A stretch of DNA of 40,675 nucleotides from a virus. Below, piece by piece: positions 5,469-39,198 of the stretch (positions are counted from its first letter, which is position 1; the number at the start of each line of letters is the position of its first letter). The position numbers and the translations under genes are program-made. The stretch lies in the IMG/VR virus record IMGVR_UViG_3300048930_000266, positions 1 through 40,675 of that record. The stretch is one strand, 5' to 3'. The notes below the pieces were generated by a model. That model was given only the letters and a program-made list of their open reading frames with translations, was not told the DNA's origin and did not search any database.

Positions 5469-5635
5469 AACGACTCTTGATGCCAATCTCCTGGCTCACC
5501 TGGAAAGCTGCTGACCTCACGGCGTGGGGATGCGAGCACAATCTCTGGCCTTACAAGGTCTACAACGTCACCTGCCGCTTTGCCTTCTGGTTCGATGAGC
5601 GGTTCGACCTGGGCCAGACCAAGGTGATCTCATGA
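5465..5635 (+). CDS. Hypothetical small aromatic-rich protein
   Basis: 56 residues from the ATG at 5465, preceded by AAGGAAAG. It is rich in Trp/Phe (TWKAADLTAWGCEHNLW, then FAFWFDERF). The N-terminus is moderately hydrophobic but too short and interrupted for a clear membrane segment. Overlapping ATGA junctions on both sides place it in the early operon. Function unknown. Confidence 0.6.
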   Translation: MKRLLMPISWLTWKAADLTAWGCEHNLWPYKVYNVTCRFAFWFDERFDLGQTKVIS

Positions 5636-5871
5636 GCTACCCCGTCATCGACGAAGCCCACCTCAGCGACGAGAGCCGCGCCATGCTGGCCGACATCCGG
5701 CAGCATGGGTTCACCGTCACCCTCGACAAGCTGGCCGATGCCCACACGGTCCGCATGCGCGTCCACCACGGTCGCACCCTGGTCAGCCGCTCGACCTGCA
5801 CCGCTGGTCCCGACAACGCCGTTCGCGCTGGACATACCAAGTGGCTTCGGGATGTGGAGGTGCTGGTGTGA
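5632..5871 (+). CDS. Hypothetical early protein
   Basis: 79 residues, overlapping the previous stop by 4 nt and the next start by 4 nt. An acidic N-terminal helix (AHLSDESRAMLADIRQ) is followed by a short beta-rich part with VRMRVHHGRTLVSRS. No family recognised. Confidence 0.6.
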   Translation: MSYPVIDEAHLSDESRAMLADIRQHGFTVTLDKLADAHTVRMRVHHGRTLVSRSTCTAGPDNAVRAGHTKWLRDVEVLV

Positions 5872-6269
5872 AAAGCATCTCTTTCGCCTGGACGACTGAC
5901 GCCCTGCTGGCAGGTCGCAAGACCTCGACTCTGCGGCAATGGAAAGACACCTACGCACAGCAGTTCAAAGCAGGCGAGCTGGTCACCGCGTACGACAAGC
6001 AGGCCCGGTTCGGTGGAAGGCCTGTCGCCATCATCCGACTCACCCACGCCCCAACCAAAGGCGACATCAACCAGATTCTGGACGACGTCTACGAGGCCGA
6101 AGGGTTCGCCTGGTACGACGAGCAGTCCGCCCAGGGCAGTCTCGTCGGCCAGAAACTACGCGCAGAACTGGGAGTCGCGAAGGATCAGACGATACGGGAG
6201 TGGCTTGCAGGTGGCGCACTTTGGGGCGACTGGGTGATCCGCTTCGAGCTGGTGGAGGTGTTGTCATGA
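5868..6269 (+). CDS. ASCH/PUA-like domain protein
   Basis: 133 residues from a GTG at 5868 that overlaps the previous TGA. The N-terminal half (ISFAWTTDALLAGRKTSTLR, then GELVTAYDKQARFGG, then PVAIIRLTHAP) matches the layout of ASCH/PUA-like RNA-binding domains: an 'xxF...hxxGxKTxTxR' start, a 'G' turn and strands ending in I-R-L. Such domains occur in phage genomes and are proposed to bind RNA or modified nucleotides. Family assignment is by pattern; no experimental role is implied. Confidence 0.6.
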   Translation: MKSISFAWTTDALLAGRKTSTLRQWKDTYAQQFKAGELVTAYDKQARFGGRPVAIIRLTHAPTKGDINQILDDVYEAEGFAWYDEQSAQGSLVGQKLRAELGVAKDQTIREWLAGGALWGDWVIRFELVEVLS

Positions 6270-6592
6270 GCGCTAGCTGCAATGCCTGCATGGGTAAGGG
6301 CGTCATCCTTTACGACACCGATGAAGGCGAGGTGCCGTGGCGCACGGATGACACCGTGGCAGAGACTCCATGTCCGATTTGTCAGGTGACAACCACGCTC
6401 GACATCAATGTCGGAACTCTCGCCTACCTGGCCTATGACTACTTTCACGAGGTTCTTGATTCAGCCGAGGCAAGTCGTCTGTCGGCAGTGTTTGCCACTG
6501 CACTGACGCATAGCGCGGTAATGATAAGGATTCCGGCCACCGAAGAAATGGTTGACCAGTTCGAAGAATTCGTGGAAGGGGCGCGGCCATGA
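6266..6592 (+). CDS. Hypothetical protein with putative zinc ribbon
   Basis: 108 residues. The first 40 carry CNACMGKG and CPIC, a two-CxxC arrangement suited to one zinc. The remainder is helical and acidic (EMVDQFEEFVEGA). ATGA overlaps with both neighbours. Codon usage is visibly less GC-biased than the flanking genes. Function unknown. Confidence 0.65.
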   Translation: MSASCNACMGKGVILYDTDEGEVPWRTDDTVAETPCPICQVTTTLDINVGTLAYLAYDYFHEVLDSAEASRLSAVFATALTHSAVMIRIPATEEMVDQFEEFVEGARP

Positions 6593-10186: not shown

Positions 10187-10207
10187 AGAATGCGAACACA
10201 TGTTCGC
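10183..10207 (+). promoter_or_regulatory. Integrase promoter with overlapping SOS box
   Basis: Extended -10 TGC-TAGAAT (10183-10191) with no good -35. Immediately downstream is GCGAAC-ACAT-GTTCGC (10192-10207), a perfect match to the GAAC-N4-GTTC LexA site of Gram-positive and actinobacterial hosts. The site covers the expected transcription start near 10198, so a bound repressor would block initiation. An ATG at 10200 opens a 62-codon frame out of phase with int; I regard it as fortuitous. Confidence 0.7.
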
Positions 10208-10281: not shown

Positions 10282-11508
10282 GTGCCAAAGCAAAAGGACC
10301 GGGGACTACGGCGCGGGCAGGGGTACACCGAGCGGCGCGTCGGGAAGGATGGCGCGGTGTTCTACGTCGCCCGGTGGCTGGAAGGTGAGGCGTACCGATC
10401 AAAGGTCTTCCGAGATCCCGATGCGGATACTGCCCTGGAAGCCGCCGAGCAGTTCATCCGCGACCGCGACCGGGCGCTTCGGGTAGGGCGACATATCCCG
10501 CCAGCGGAGATGACGGTGATGGATCTGGTCAACCAGTACCTCGCCCGGGGCGAATCCCGCTGGTCACCCAACACCTACGCCACCTACTGTCAGCGAACCC
10601 GGGCCTGTATCGAGCCGCGTCTCGGCAGCGTCCGGCTGCAATCCCTCACCACGTCGCAGATTCAGCACTGGATCGATCAGCTAGTGCGGGACGGCTGGTC
10701 TCCAGAGGTGGTGGTCAGCTCGTCGCTGCTGCTGGGTTCGGCGTTCAAAGAGGCGGTGCGGCTGGGGATCCTCTCGGCCAATCCAGCCGCTGGCGTCCGT
10801 CGGCCGAAGATCGCTCGCAAGCACCACGTCACCTGGACCGCCGAGGAAGCCCGCCTGGCCCTTGCCGAGGTCGCCGACGAGCCGCGCTGGAATGCGGTCT
10901 ACCGCCTGGCGCTGGCCACCGGCATGCGCCCGGGCGAACTCCGTGCCCTGAAGTGGAAGGACGTCACGCTCAATGCCCCTGCCGGCGCCAGCGTCACGAT
11001 CCGGCGGACCATGACCAAGGATCGCAACGGTCGACCGGTCCTCGGGCAGGATACGAAGACGTCCGGAGCCCGGGAGGTCGCGATTCCCACGTCCGTGGCG
11101 CAGGCGCTCCAGAGGTGGCGTACGGCCCAGAAGGAAGTGCGGCTCCGCTCCAAAACCTGGCAGGAACTTGATGCGGTGTTCACCGGCGTGGGTGGGGTTC
11201 ACCTGTCACTCAGCACCTGGCAGAACCGGCACCGGAAGCTGTGCGATGCGGTCCAGGAGCGGATGTCGGACGGGCAGACGTTCCCGCGCCCGACGCTCCA
11301 TGAGCTGCGGCACACCGCCGCCACCCTGATGCTGGCCAACAACATCCACGTCAAGATCGTGTCCGACATCCTGGGGCACCGCAAGATCGAGACGACGCTG
11401 AACATCTACCAGCACGTCTCGGCCGACCTGCAACGGGCTGCCAGTGAGCGGCTCGACGCCTCCCTGAACGCGACAACATCACTCCCGGATCGGGCCGAAA
11501 ACGGCTAG
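10282..11508 (+). CDS. int: Tyrosine-family phage integrase
   Basis: 408 residues from the GTG at 10282 (GGAGG 6 nt upstream). A basic N-terminal arm-binding region (RRGQGYTERRVGKDGA) comes first, then a core-binding SAM-like domain (about 85-175), then the catalytic domain. Catalytic residues are visible: Arg in TGMRPGEL (about 216), HELRH (about 341-345, His and Arg), His in LGHRKIETT (about 365) and the nucleophile Tyr376 in NIYQH. It catalyses attP-attB integration and, with an excisionase, excision. It is convergent with the late operon; an attP candidate lies directly downstream, the usual int-attP order. Confidence 0.95.
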   Translation: MPKQKDRGLRRGQGYTERRVGKDGAVFYVARWLEGEAYRSKVFRDPDADTALEAAEQFIRDRDRALRVGRHIPPAEMTVMDLVNQYLARGESRWSPNTYATYCQRTRACIEPRLGSVRLQSLTTSQIQHWIDQLVRDGWSPEVVVSSSLLLGSAFKEAVRLGILSANPAAGVRRPKIARKHHVTWTAEEARLALAEVADEPRWNAVYRLALATGMRPGELRALKWKDVTLNAPAGASVTIRRTMTKDRNGRPVLGQDTKTSGAREVAIPTSVAQALQRWRTAQKEVRLRSKTWQELDAVFTGVGGVHLSLSTWQNRHRKLCDAVQERMSDGQTFPRPTLHELRHTAATLMLANNIHVKIVSDILGHRKIETTLNIYQHVSADLQRAASERLDASLNATTSLPDRAENG

Positions 11509-36141: not shown

Positions 36142-36434
36142 GCGACGACCAGGAATACACCTCGATCGTGAACCTGGGCCAACGATTTGGCATCTCCAAA
36201 AAGGCCCAGCTGGTGCTCTCCAACCTCCACATGAAACCGGTTCCCTTCTCCATTGGCGCTGATGGCCTGCCGATCGTGAGCGAAGAAATTCGCCTCCAGA
36301 TCGCTGGGGCGACGCTGGCAGCCGATGAGCCCCACACCAAGCGGCCGCCATTCAAGTCCAAGGAGGAATGGTTGCAAGAGCTCGGAGCCATCGTCCTGGC
36401 AGACGATCCGACGTTCCTTGACTTGCCACAATAG
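36138..36434 (+). CDS. Hypothetical small acidic protein
   Basis: 98 residues from the ATG at 36138, overlapping the previous TGA. An N-terminal segment (SIVNLGQRFGISKKAQLVLSNL) could be a helix-turn-helix; the rest is acidic (GATLAADEPHTK, LADDPTFLDL). Its stop falls inside the next promoter palindrome. Function unknown. Confidence 0.6.
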   Translation: MSDDQEYTSIVNLGQRFGISKKAQLVLSNLHMKPVPFSIGADGLPIVSEEIRLQIAGATLAADEPHTKRPPFKSKEEWLQELGAIVLADDPTFLDLPQ

Positions 36435-36451
36435 AACATATGTTCTATTGT
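36423..36451 (+). promoter_or_regulatory. SOS-box promoter
   Basis: -35 TTGCCA (36423-36428), a 17-bp spacer and -10 TATTGT (36446-36451). The spacer is filled by a perfect palindrome centred at 36439/36440 with core GAAC-ATAT-GTTC (36434-36445), matching the LexA consensus. Binding here would physically block the promoter. A start codon lies 6 nt after the -10, implying a leaderless transcript. Confidence 0.75.
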
Positions 36452-36456
36452 GTAGT

Positions 36457-36519
36457 ATGGAAACTGCCACAAAGAGGGGACTAGGCCAACAGTGGAGGAT
36501 CAGCGCACCATTCACATGA
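36457..36519 (+). CDS. Short leaderless peptide ORF
   Basis: 20 residues (METATKRGLGQQWRISAPFT). The ATG coincides with the predicted transcription start, so it would be translated from a leaderless mRNA. The stop TGA overlaps the ATG of the next gene as ATGA, suggesting translational coupling. Small basic peptide; it may only deliver ribosomes to the next start. Confidence 0.45.
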   Translation: METATKRGLGQQWRISAPFT

Positions 36520-36881
36520 CTGAACGGTCCGTCATCGTCGTGGGGGACGATCCGGGTCGCGACATGTGTCGCGTAGTTCATAAGCGCCTTGATGACGCGA
36601 CTACTACCGAAGCATTACACGTCCCTGGCGACCTAGTGCAGCCGGTGATTCTTTCGTCCAGTCATCCCGAGGTTGTGCGCCACGAACTGCGCAGATACAC
36701 CGCACTGATGAACCAGGAAGCAGCTCTGCGAAGTATTCCGGAATCAGAGCGCCGAACCGAGGAACGCCGGCGGGCAAGGCGGGAGCGCACCATGCGAGGC
36801 CACTGCACGACGTGCGGCGGGAGCAGCTGGAGCGAAGACCATGAAGGCAACTCGATAGCCTGCCCTGAGTGCAATGCCTAG
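36516..36881 (+). CDS. SOS-promoter gene next to the repressor; candidate antirepressor
   Basis: 121 residues from the ATG at 36516, coupled to the 20-aa ORF; a GTG at 36492 is an alternative start. The middle is charged and helical (RSIPESERRTEERRRARRER). The C-terminus has CTTCGGS and CPEC, a zinc ribbon. It runs convergently into the repressor; both end in the shared CTAG (36878-36881). In coliphage 186, a LexA-controlled antirepressor (Tum) inactivates the repressor. This gene occupies an equivalent logical position, but no sequence similarity to Tum is claimed. Confidence 0.6.
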   Translation: MTERSVIVVGDDPGRDMCRVVHKRLDDATTTEALHVPGDLVQPVILSSSHPEVVRHELRRYTALMNQEAALRSIPESERRTEERRRARRERTMRGHCTTCGGSSWSEDHEGNSIACPECNA

Positions 36882-37276
36882 TCGCCTGGATTTTCATGCC
36901 TCGCCCGTGCCCTGCTACGCTCGGCTAAATCCCGAAGCGTAGTTGCCATGTGGCGAGTTAGATCCTCGTTTCGCTCCCAATCTATTGCCTTGACCAATCC
37001 AAGAATCTCGGCGAGGTTGGAATCTGGATCGATCTCCGGATCCTCCGGCCGATGCCCCGCTTTCGTCAACACGACATCGACATCCAGGGCCATAACGTCG
37101 GCAATCCGGTCGGCCATTTCTGGCGTCGGAGTCCGCTGACCAGTCGCCCAGCGCGACACGACCGCGTTCTGCACATCGAGGCGCCTCGCAAGGTCCGCCT
37201 GGGTCCACTCGCGTCGCGCCAATTGCCGCTTTAGCCATAGTGCAAAGGTGCCTTCTGGCACTCTCTCGATACTCAT
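36878..37276 (-). CDS. Phage repressor, Cro/C1-type HTH
   Basis: 132 residues from the ATG at 37276. Residues 13-65 (LKRQLARREWTQADLARRL, then NAVVSRWATGQRTP, ADRIADVMALDVD) form a clear XRE/HTH_3 domain. There is no LexA-like autocleavage peptidase, so induction must come from elsewhere. The C-terminal half is charged and helical (about 75-132). It is divergent from the Cro-like gene and convergent with the SOS-promoter gene. An operator-like repeat lies inside its first codons. No obvious RBS; possibly leaderless. Confidence 0.85.
   Translation of the reverse strand: MSIERVPEGTFALWLKRQLARREWTQADLARRLDVQNAVVSRWATGQRTPTPEMADRIADVMALDVDVVLTKAGHRPEDPEIDPDSNLAEILGLVKAIDWERNEDLTRHMATTLRDLAERSRARARHENPGD
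37248..37261. promoter_or_regulatory. Operator candidate O1 (GTGCC-TTCT-GGCAC)
   Basis: A perfect 5-bp inverted repeat with a 4-nt centre inside the repressor's first codons. It matches the consensus GTRCC-N4-GGYAC shared with 37299-37312 and 37541-37554. The position just downstream of the repressor start fits autoregulation. Confidence 0.6.
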
Positions 37277-37289
37277 ATGGCAATGATGC

Positions 37290-37318
37290 TTGCGCAAAGT
37301 GCCAGACGGTACTACAAT
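37290..37318 (+). promoter_or_regulatory. Early (Cro-like) promoter
   Basis: -35 TTGCGC (37290-37295), 17-bp spacer, -10 TACAAT (37313-37318). The ATG at 37325 is 7 nt after the -10, again a leaderless arrangement. It probably drives the whole early operon, which runs on through the contig join. Confidence 0.75.
37299..37312. promoter_or_regulatory. Operator candidate O2 (GTGCC-AGAC-GGTAC)
   Basis: Fills the end of the spacer between -35 and -10 of the Cro-like promoter and abuts the -10. It matches GTRCC-N4-GGYAC. Occupancy would block that promoter directly. Centre to O1 is 51 bp, close to five helical turns, so the two sites lie on roughly one face. Confidence 0.65.
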
Positions 37319-37324
37319 GGTTCC

Positions 37325-37588
37325 ATGAGAACGATTCAAGCGGGGCGACGCTACTTCGCCACTCACCAGCTCCGAACGCGCATCCTCGAACAGGGTCGCA
37401 GTTTCCGGTGGGTTGCCCAGCAAATCGAGCTGTCCGACAGCCATTTCAATCGCGTCCTGTCCGGTGAACGATGGGTCACTGAGGCGAATGCCCGGATGGT
37501 GGCTGCCATCCTCGGGACTGACTTTGACGTGCTTTGGAAAGTACCAACTGGTACCGAAATGGCACCAAAAGGAGTATTAGTCGCATGA
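37325..37588 (+). CDS. Cro-like HTH regulator
   Basis: 87 residues from the ATG at 37325. RTRILEQGRSFRWVAQQIEL, then SDSHFNRVLSGERW and ARMVAAILGTDFDVLW is an XRE-type HTH. Divergent from the repressor with the operator between them, hence Cro-like. It overlaps the next gene's ATG by 4 nt. Confidence 0.8.
   Translation: MRTIQAGRRYFATHQLRTRILEQGRSFRWVAQQIELSDSHFNRVLSGERWVTEANARMVAAILGTDFDVLWKVPTGTEMAPKGVLVA
37541..37554. promoter_or_regulatory. Operator candidate O3 (GTACC-AACT-GGTAC)
   Basis: Third copy of GTRCC-N4-GGYAC, inside the Cro-like gene near its 3' end and upstream of the 37585 gene. It could be a distal site for repressor looping or for control of the next gene. It is part of coding sequence (VPTGT region), so chance symmetry is possible. 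Confidence 0.5.
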
Positions 37589-37899
37589 GTGAGTTCCCCC
37601 TGGCCGCCCACCGTGCCGGCACGATCCCCCTGGAAGAGGTTGCCGAGTACCTGGGCATCAGTGTCGAGATGGTCAAGCGCTGCATTGCCGACGATGAGGA
37701 CGAGACCCTCGCCGGCGAGACCAAAACGAATCGGAAGCTGGTTCACGCAAAAGCGACAGACGACGTTCGTCGCATTCCCGGTGGTCGCCGACAGGGTGCC
37801 AGCTGCTTCGTCCTTCGCCGTCCCTTTGAGCGCTATGCGGGCATGACGGCCAACTCGCAGCCAACTGACCTCGTTGCGCGCAAGAAACGCAGCGCCTGA
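37585..37899 (+). CDS. Excisionase/MerR-like HTH protein
   Basis: 104 residues; AAAGGAG about 10 nt before the ATG. GTIPLEEVAEYLGISVEMVKRCI is a classic 'HTH_17' entry (helix, AEYLGIS turn, recognition helix), as in excisionases and other small phage DNA binders. The C-terminal half is basic. Xis activity for the integrase is a reasonable guess, given no other candidate in the window. Confidence 0.65.
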   Translation: MSEFPLAAHRAGTIPLEEVAEYLGISVEMVKRCIADDEDETLAGETKTNRKLVHAKATDDVRRIPGGRRQGASCFVLRRPFERYAGMTANSQPTDLVARKKRSA

Positions 37900-38246: not shown

Positions 38247-38525
38247 ATGGCATCCAGTCCCCGCAACCATCCCCGCACCACCACCGAGTCTGTCGCTGCG
38301 ATCGAAGCGGCCAAGGACCGGTTCATCGAAGCAATGGCCGACGGCATCGTCACCTACGAAGAGCAGGCCGCGGTGTCGGTCCTGATCGAGGAGTCCTACC
38401 AGATCGCGATGTACGCCGATGAGGGCGTGCGGATTGCCGTCGCCCTGATGCGGGGCGGGGCGGACTCCCCGAATGCCCGGCGCTACGGGTTCGATCCCGC
38501 GACCGTCGACCTGGCCTGCGCATAG
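38247..38525 (+). CDS. Hypothetical small early protein
   Basis: 92 residues from the ATG at 38247 (GAGAAAG upstream). Helical throughout (TTTESVAAIEAAKDRFIEAM, then TYEEQAAVSVLIEESYQIAM). No Cys until the last residues. No family recognised. Confidence 0.6.
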   Translation: MASSPRNHPRTTTESVAAIEAAKDRFIEAMADGIVTYEEQAAVSVLIEESYQIAMYADEGVRIAVALMRGGADSPNARRYGFDPATVDLACA

Positions 38526-38592
38526 CGAAACCGCCTCGTGGCGGACACCACGGGCGGCTTCTCAAAAGTGGTTACCCAGAAGGACACGCGAC

Positions 38593-39198
38593 ATGCCCAA
38601 AGGACTTTACCGACGCCAGTATACCCCGCCAGCGGAACACTTTTGGAAGCATGTTGCGAAAACTGAGGGTTGTTGGAACTGGACCGGCCGCAAGATCAAG
38701 AGTGCCAGGTGTCTGGAATATGGGGGCATCTGGCTCGAAGGCAAGCTACAAGTGGCGCATCGAGTCTCCTACGAACTTCATGTCGGCCCAGTCCCTCCCG
38801 GGCTCCTGGTGCGCCACACCTGTGACAACCCGCTGTGTGTACGTCCCGGCCACCTGGTTTTGGGCGACCACCTCTCCAACCACGGGGACAAAAGCCAGAG
38901 GGGCCGAGTAGTTACCGGATGGGACACCTGTCCCGACCGGATGCATGAACTCCTGGCAATGCGCCAGCGCCCTTTCCCTCCAATCGCTCAAGAGATTCGC
39001 CAATTAGCAGTGGATCTATTCGTCAACCACGGGCTGACACAGTCCTCCATCGCCAAGCGCCTGGGCATCAGTCAGAACGCCGTCTCCGGAATCGTTCGCT
39101 CGGCAGGCGTCACGGTGCCGGTGATGTTTCGCAACCTCGGACCTCAAGAGCGAATCGCTCTTATCCGCGATTTCAACCCAGAAATGAGCAAACCATGA
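38593..39198 (+). CDS. HNH endonuclease with C-terminal HTH
   Basis: 201 residues from the ATG at 38593. An HNH_3-type domain is visible at about 50-100: VAHRVSYELHVGPVPPG, then HTCDNPLCVRPGHL. A resolvase-like HTH follows (LTQSSIAKRLGISQNAVSGI, about 150-175), which would give DNA specificity. This build is typical of free-standing homing endonucleases of phages. No intron or intein is apparent, so it is a solo insertion in the operon. The gene starts about 65 nt after the previous one and overlaps the next. Confidence 0.88.
   Translation: MPKGLYRRQYTPPAEHFWKHVAKTEGCWNWTGRKIKSARCLEYGGIWLEGKLQVAHRVSYELHVGPVPPGLLVRHTCDNPLCVRPGHLVLGDHLSNHGDKSQRGRVVTGWDTCPDRMHELLAMRQRPFPPIAQEIRQLAVDLFVNHGLTQSSIAKRLGISQNAVSGIVRSAGVTVPVMFRNLGPQERIALIRDFNPEMSKP

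Follow-up and report, generated by a model that had tools for sequence, protein, structure and literature searches.

A candidate LexA-controlled induction module built on an undescribed zinc-ribbon-like protein in a phage of probable Chloroflexota hosts

The virus record IMGVR_UViG_3300048930_000266 comprises 40,675 bases with a G+C content of 64% and was analyzed over its entire length, referred to below as the window. A tRNA scan found none, and a DNA search of phages with the region described here gave no match. This region carries, from left to right, a promoter overlapped by a long palindrome, a short open reading frame (ORF), a gene that we call P1, an oppositely oriented repressor gene, and the beginning of a rightward early operon; a second copy of the core of the palindrome is found upstream of the integrase gene. 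For comparison we used the two closest-related contigs, L004 (terminase 83% identical) and L005 (terminase 70% identical), the latter reached via terminase relatives. The features are as follows.

10194 to 10205, no strand: second perfect copy of the GAAC-N4-GTTC core, GCGAACACATGTTCGC, ahead of the integrase gene
10282 to 11508, plus strand: tyrosine integrase (Phage_integrase, 4e-24; ORF taken from 10258)
36423 to 36451, plus strand: sigma-70-type promoter TTGCCA-N17-TATTGT, 9 of 12 consensus matches
36427 to 36452, no strand: perfect 26-bp palindrome CACAATAGAACATATGTTCTATTGTG with a GAAC-N4-GTTC core, candidate host LexA site (SOS box)
36457 to 36519, plus strand: 20-codon ORF from the first ATG past the -10, possibly non-coding, possibly a coupling leader
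36516 to 36881, plus strand: P1, 121 amino acids (aa), C-terminal CxxC...CxxC zinc-ribbon-like motif, candidate antirepressor
36878 to 37276, minus strand: C1-type repressor, 132 aa, with HTH_3 as its only domain, near the N terminus, and no S24 domain
37248 to 37261, no strand: candidate repressor operator GTGCCTTCTGGCAC
37299 to 37312, no strand: candidate repressor operator GTGCCAGACGGTAC, between the -35 and -10 of the cro promoter TTGCGC-N17-TACAAT
37325 to 37588, plus strand: cro-like HTH gene, opening the rightward early operon, with its ATG 6 bases past the -10
37541 to 37554, no strand: candidate repressor operator GTACCAACTGGTAC, toward the end of the cro-like gene
37585 to 37899, plus strand: second early gene, with a homologue in L005

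A preliminary description of this DNA had placed a GAAC-N4-GTTC palindrome between the -35 and -10 hexamers of a promoter, and this arrangement was confirmed: the core, GAACATATGTTC (36434-36445), sits within a larger perfect palindrome of 26 bp that occupies the spacer and the -10. It is the longest palindrome in the window, the runner-up measuring 18 bp; in 200 third-order Markov sequences of window length, the longest palindrome had a mean of 16 bp and a maximum of 26. The bare core occurs twice in the window versus a Markov mean of 0.98, with 25% of the simulations holding two or more copies. The bare core is therefore not beyond chance, while the 26-bp palindrome is unusual. An 18-mer of the box is present in 26 viral contigs, L005 among them, which by appearance are mostly AT-rich and unrelated; this points to a motif in wide use and is no evidence for a spread of this particular module. 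In two unrelated viral contigs, L022 and L035, the same core extends into perfect palindromes 34 and 40 bp long, and L022 holds a second GAACATATGTTC immediately beside the extended palindrome.

The promoter, with its -35 (TTGCCA) at 36423-36428, a spacer of 17 bp and its -10 (TATTGT) at 36446-36451, likewise stood up to reanalysis; sites of this quality were found at 2 per 3 kb scanned versus 0.7 in shuffles. Also present, as had been described, are a first ATG shortly after the -10 (at 36457, 5 bases downstream) and the coupling of its ORF to the gene at 36516-36881, the ORF ending in an ATGA that overlaps the P1 start codon at 36516 (an alternative start, GTG at 36492, would lengthen P1 to 129 aa). 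In both phages, cro begins 6 bases after a -10-like hexamer, which makes a leaderless start plausible. The short leaderless peptide itself, which had been put forward as a conserved or coding element, has no counterpart in L005, and codon scoring places its frame with non-coding sequence: 98.6% of in-frame windows of 60 bases score higher than its -0.64, a value that is usual for out-of-frame windows. The 20-codon ORF is possibly a coupling leader rather than an effector.

P1 resembles no described protein family. Neither P1 nor its L005 homologue met a curated cut-off or scored convincingly against described families, and the weak hits of P1 in Pfam and PHROG (E of 0.01 to 1) were set aside because the L005 homologue lacks them, with the exception of a sub-threshold GRXCR1-2_C zinc stretch, the only one common to both. 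The single match of a PDB profile search (E of 0.4) was disregarded, and the predicted structure, with a mean pLDDT of 55, is of too low quality for a fold search. Neither protein matched a described antirepressor or DinI family, and P1 is accordingly not classed as a Tum homologue. The residues that P1 shares with the L005 protein cluster in a central stretch and in the C-terminal GxCxxCGG...DxEGNxIxCxECN, which looks like a zinc ribbon (the label is our own). The codon score of P1 is -0.24 versus +0.47 for typical in-frame 60-base windows of the phage, and its two other frames score lower still (-0.69 and -0.88); such a low score that nevertheless exceeds those of its own alternative frames is consistent with an acquired gene. 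We searched for relatives in viral contigs, with P1 alone, a two-row alignment and the L005 homologue as queries, and also in a phage collection and 400 Chloroflexota genomes; across all three, L005 was the only one found. One weak genome match (E of 8.6e-4) was rejected, the listed ORFs around it including no CxxC protein.

The P1 and repressor genes converge with a tail-to-tail overlap of 4 bp. This shared stop region had been read as part of the switch, but its significance is not supported, because the two genes lie about 1 kb apart in L005. The claim that the repressor lacks an autocleavage domain was upheld: it carries an HTH_3-type domain only, and Peptidase_S24 was found in neither the window record nor the L005 record (0 of 2) even at an E of 0.1, whereas the same search was positive in 12 of 14 control genomes. 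Lambda-type CI repressors cleave themselves, which couples DNA damage to induction in a C1/Cro organization. As no protein of the phage, its repressor included, shows an S24 peptidase domain, a self-cleavage route of this type is unlikely in the window and L005 phages, and if the phage is SOS inducible, an indirect route would be needed.

The window holds four perfect GTRCC-N4-GGYAC sites, three of which surround the repressor-cro region (37248, 37299, and 37541). As those sites served to define the pattern, evidence comes only from how they cluster and from their geometry, and a search allowing one mismatch showed no enrichment over Markov sequences (5 seen, mean of 7). The cro promoter of the window, with its operator in the spacer (37290-37327), has the same layout in L005 with another operator sequence: at the equivalent places, L005 reads TTACC-N4-GGTAA with the same geometry. 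Within the early operon, positions 38473-39198 encode an HNH endonuclease with a C-terminal HTH region.

Comparison with L005 provides a stronger argument for the box than the palindrome statistics do. At position 6391, L005 carries AATAGAACATATGTTCTATT, which has the same 20-bp core as the window's box and precedes a P1 homologue (34% identity over 86 residues, E of 1e-6), followed in the same order by homologues of the repressor (37-38%), cro (28%), and the next early gene (35%, or 41% by alignment). A blastn comparison of the whole window with L005 returned two aligned stretches only, in or near the terminase genes, and none at the flanks of the box; these 20 bp were thus kept while their surroundings changed. 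Repressor and operators changed together while the box stayed identical. In L005, P1 starts 32 bases past the palindrome of the box core, with GGGGAG before the start, and is ATGA-coupled to a further gene of 136 aa (5585-5992, minus strand) that matches no family and would belong to the same SOS operon. The simple promoter scan did not recognize the box promoter of L005. The two closest-related contigs differ in this respect, as neither a box nor P1 was found in L004 within the stretch examined; with only two P1 sequences found, the conservation of P1 and box comes from one relative.

A terminase profile search led to 15 genome loci, 11 of which belong to Chloroflexota by record title, with a best identity of 59%. 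The groups of this phylum named in the titles include Herpetosiphon, Caldilineaceae, Anaerolineae, and others. The host is therefore probably a Chloroflexota bacterium. In the 260 bases before the lexA match of 35 Chloroflexota loci, a perfect GAAC-N4-GTTC was present in 20 versus none for the reversed pattern that served as control, and with up to one mismatch in 28 versus 3. The lexA profile had matched 59 of 61 genomes, and these counts refer to the loci listed, omitting L057 and L058 (near-copies of L056) and L064 to L066 (below the curated cut-off). Perfect copies are missing from 15 of the 35 regions, so use of the motif is not uniform within the phylum. Several to many lexA regions read TTGACA-N2/3-GAAC-N4-GTTC, which places the box between -35 and -10, the same anatomy as in the phage. 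Allowing up to two mismatches, we found the phage 20-mer in 71 of 400 Chloroflexota genomes; its reversed control was counted in 3 genomes among those listed.

Taken at the level of motifs, these results favor the SOS-box reading of the preliminary description: the box matches the Chloroflexota lexA motif, is identical in L005, and would suit the LexA of the predicted, rather than observed, host very well. We regard it as very probably a LexA site. At the level of search results, the literature yielded neither a characterized prophage switch nor a dedicated LexA motif study for Chloroflexota. Two observations concern the bacterial genomes themselves. In one Herpetosiphon genome (L095/L064, G007 contig 3), a protein of 263 aa partially matches the LexA profile and has an HTH gene next to it; a box that differs from the phage 20-mer at two positions stands 17 bases ahead of this protein, which is perhaps another LexA-linked regulator. 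In L070, L073, and L074, all Chloroflexota, a box stands at the start of proteins of about 140-155 aa that look similar by eye and are candidate SOS genes of the phylum.

Given a LexA-type box in front of P1, it is tempting to propose an induction module of the functional type found in coliphage 186 and the Gifsy prophages. In the lysogen, LexA bound between -35 and -10 would keep P1 silent, and the small non-cleavable repressor would shut the early promoter via the GTRCC-N4-GGYAC operators. Upon DNA damage, active RecA would trigger self-cleavage of LexA, the box promoter would open, and P1 would be made; P1 would then inactivate the phage repressor, most simply by binding to it, and the early operon would start. 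We infer LexA binding, the damage response, and the action of P1 on the repressor from this arrangement, and consider the chances of such a module to be evenly balanced; the same holds for the candidate role of P1 as an antirepressor. The earlier view of the locus as an induction switch is thus retained in its motif, conservation, and non-cleavable repressor, and loses the short peptide and the shared stop region.

Alternatively, the box could be a LexA site and P1 could have another job in damaged cells, such as host takeover, blocking of a host or phage process, or protection of phage DNA, with induction following a different route. The SOS boxes of SPbeta that sit before genes of unclear role, in the available text of PMC8270828, provide a precedent, and both the lack of a family for P1 and the ATGA coupling to a further 136-aa gene in L005 would fit. 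Yet both phages show P1 in synteny with a non-cleavable repressor, and nothing else turned up as a candidate device for induction, with no S24 protein encoded in either record; as a whole, we consider this reading rather unlikely.

Another possibility is that the box is a LexA site and that induction results from transcription rather than from P1, with antisense read-through from the box promoter lowering repressor synthesis and continuing into cro and the early genes without need of the repressed early promoter. Box promoter, P1, antisense repressor gene, and cro follow in the same order and direction in both phages, and no terminator-like site was seen on that strand between box and cro in the window or L005. 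With the promoter pointing toward cro, such read-through is a real alternative or addition. However, scans for terminators have little power (chance alone yields about 2 sites per 3 kb, and real terminators can be missed), and the model does not require the conserved zinc-ribbon residues of P1. We therefore regard transcription as the sole route of induction as distinctly unlikely.

Still less probable, and in our estimate very much so, is that the palindrome is a non-SOS operator of the phage's repressor, Cro, or another phage regulator. Long perfect palindromes are typical of operators, and the box does overlap a promoter; but the switch operators read GTRCC-N4-GGYAC, or TTACC-N4-GGTAA in L005, while the box is identical in both phages and equals the Chloroflexota lexA motif. 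Because the operators of the two phages diverged while the box did not, it is probably read by the host's LexA. A chance palindrome before a P1 that is not an expressed gene, for which one could cite the expectation of about one bare core per window and the atypical codon usage of P1, is hardly credible given that a phage whose DNA has otherwise diverged carries these 20 bp unchanged in the same position, ahead of a homologous protein.

The LexA-controlled module might extend to a second site. GCGAACACATGTTCGC lies about 76 bases before the integrase start and 2 bases past a TAGAAT hexamer, which makes LexA control of excision possible, while by count alone this copy could be a chance occurrence. 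We rejected a general occurrence of SOS boxes at the integrases of Chloroflexota: a perfect box was found upstream of 0 of 29 related integrases (one of 30 loci was too short), and a box with up to one mismatch upstream of 3 of 29 versus 2 of 29 in the control. One could further speculate that damage sensing has been handed wholly to LexA at two boxes, one at the zinc-ribbon antirepressor operon and one at the integrase promoter, so that derepression and excision would start together, with antisense read-through as a protein-independent second arm; taken as a whole, we judge this extended scheme doubtful.

If the module proposed here operates as outlined, the LexA-controlled induction logic of enteric phages would have been built independently, with an unrelated protein, in Chloroflexota phages, and P1 would represent a third kind of protein in the antirepressor class. 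The combination of box and short repressor would then be predicted to mark SOS-inducible phages in Chloroflexota, whose prophages are hardly culturable. A full-text literature search returned no paper joining antirepressor, zinc ribbon, LexA, and phage.

The phage resembles lambda in its C1/Cro organization and in its induction by DNA damage, as proposed here, and differs from it by the absence of an S24 cleavage domain. In GIL01 of Bacillus thuringiensis, SOS boxes of the GAAC-N4-GTTC type in a phage promoter are likewise read by the host's LexA; according to the available text, that phage lacks a stress-sensitive repressor of its own and relies on LexA together with gp7 (PMC4551915), whereas the phage studied here has its own C1-type repressor and operators. 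In SPbeta, several AGAAC-type boxes likewise stand in front of phage genes whose role is unclear, but the host is a Bacillus, and the accessible part of the source does not describe the SPbeta SOS-box genes as repressor neighbors (PMC8270828). The functional likeness is to 186, N15, and the Gifsy prophages, where a host LexA motif also precedes a small phage gene. The available text of PMC3121763 lists Tum (coliphage 186), AntC (N15), and GfoA/GftA (Gifsy prophages) as LexA-controlled antirepressors, and describes the Gifsy-1 and Gifsy-2 repressors of LT2 as proteins of 136 aa without a cleavage signature that are inactivated by such antirepressors, as in 186 and N15. The repressor studied here, at 132 aa and without a cleavage domain, is similarly small. 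Unlike in Gifsy, where the same text places the antirepressor genes outside the immunity region (PMC3121763), the P1 gene adjoins the repressor; and unlike Tum, AntC, and GfoA/GftA, P1 matches no described family and ends in CxxC...CxxC. The analogy to 186 drawn in the preliminary description therefore extends to the logic of the circuit, that is, the LexA motif and the non-cleavable repressor, and not to homology of P1. LexA-controlled induction with a non-cleavable repressor is of a known kind, while to our knowledge there is novelty in the protein, in the host phylum, and possibly in the second box.
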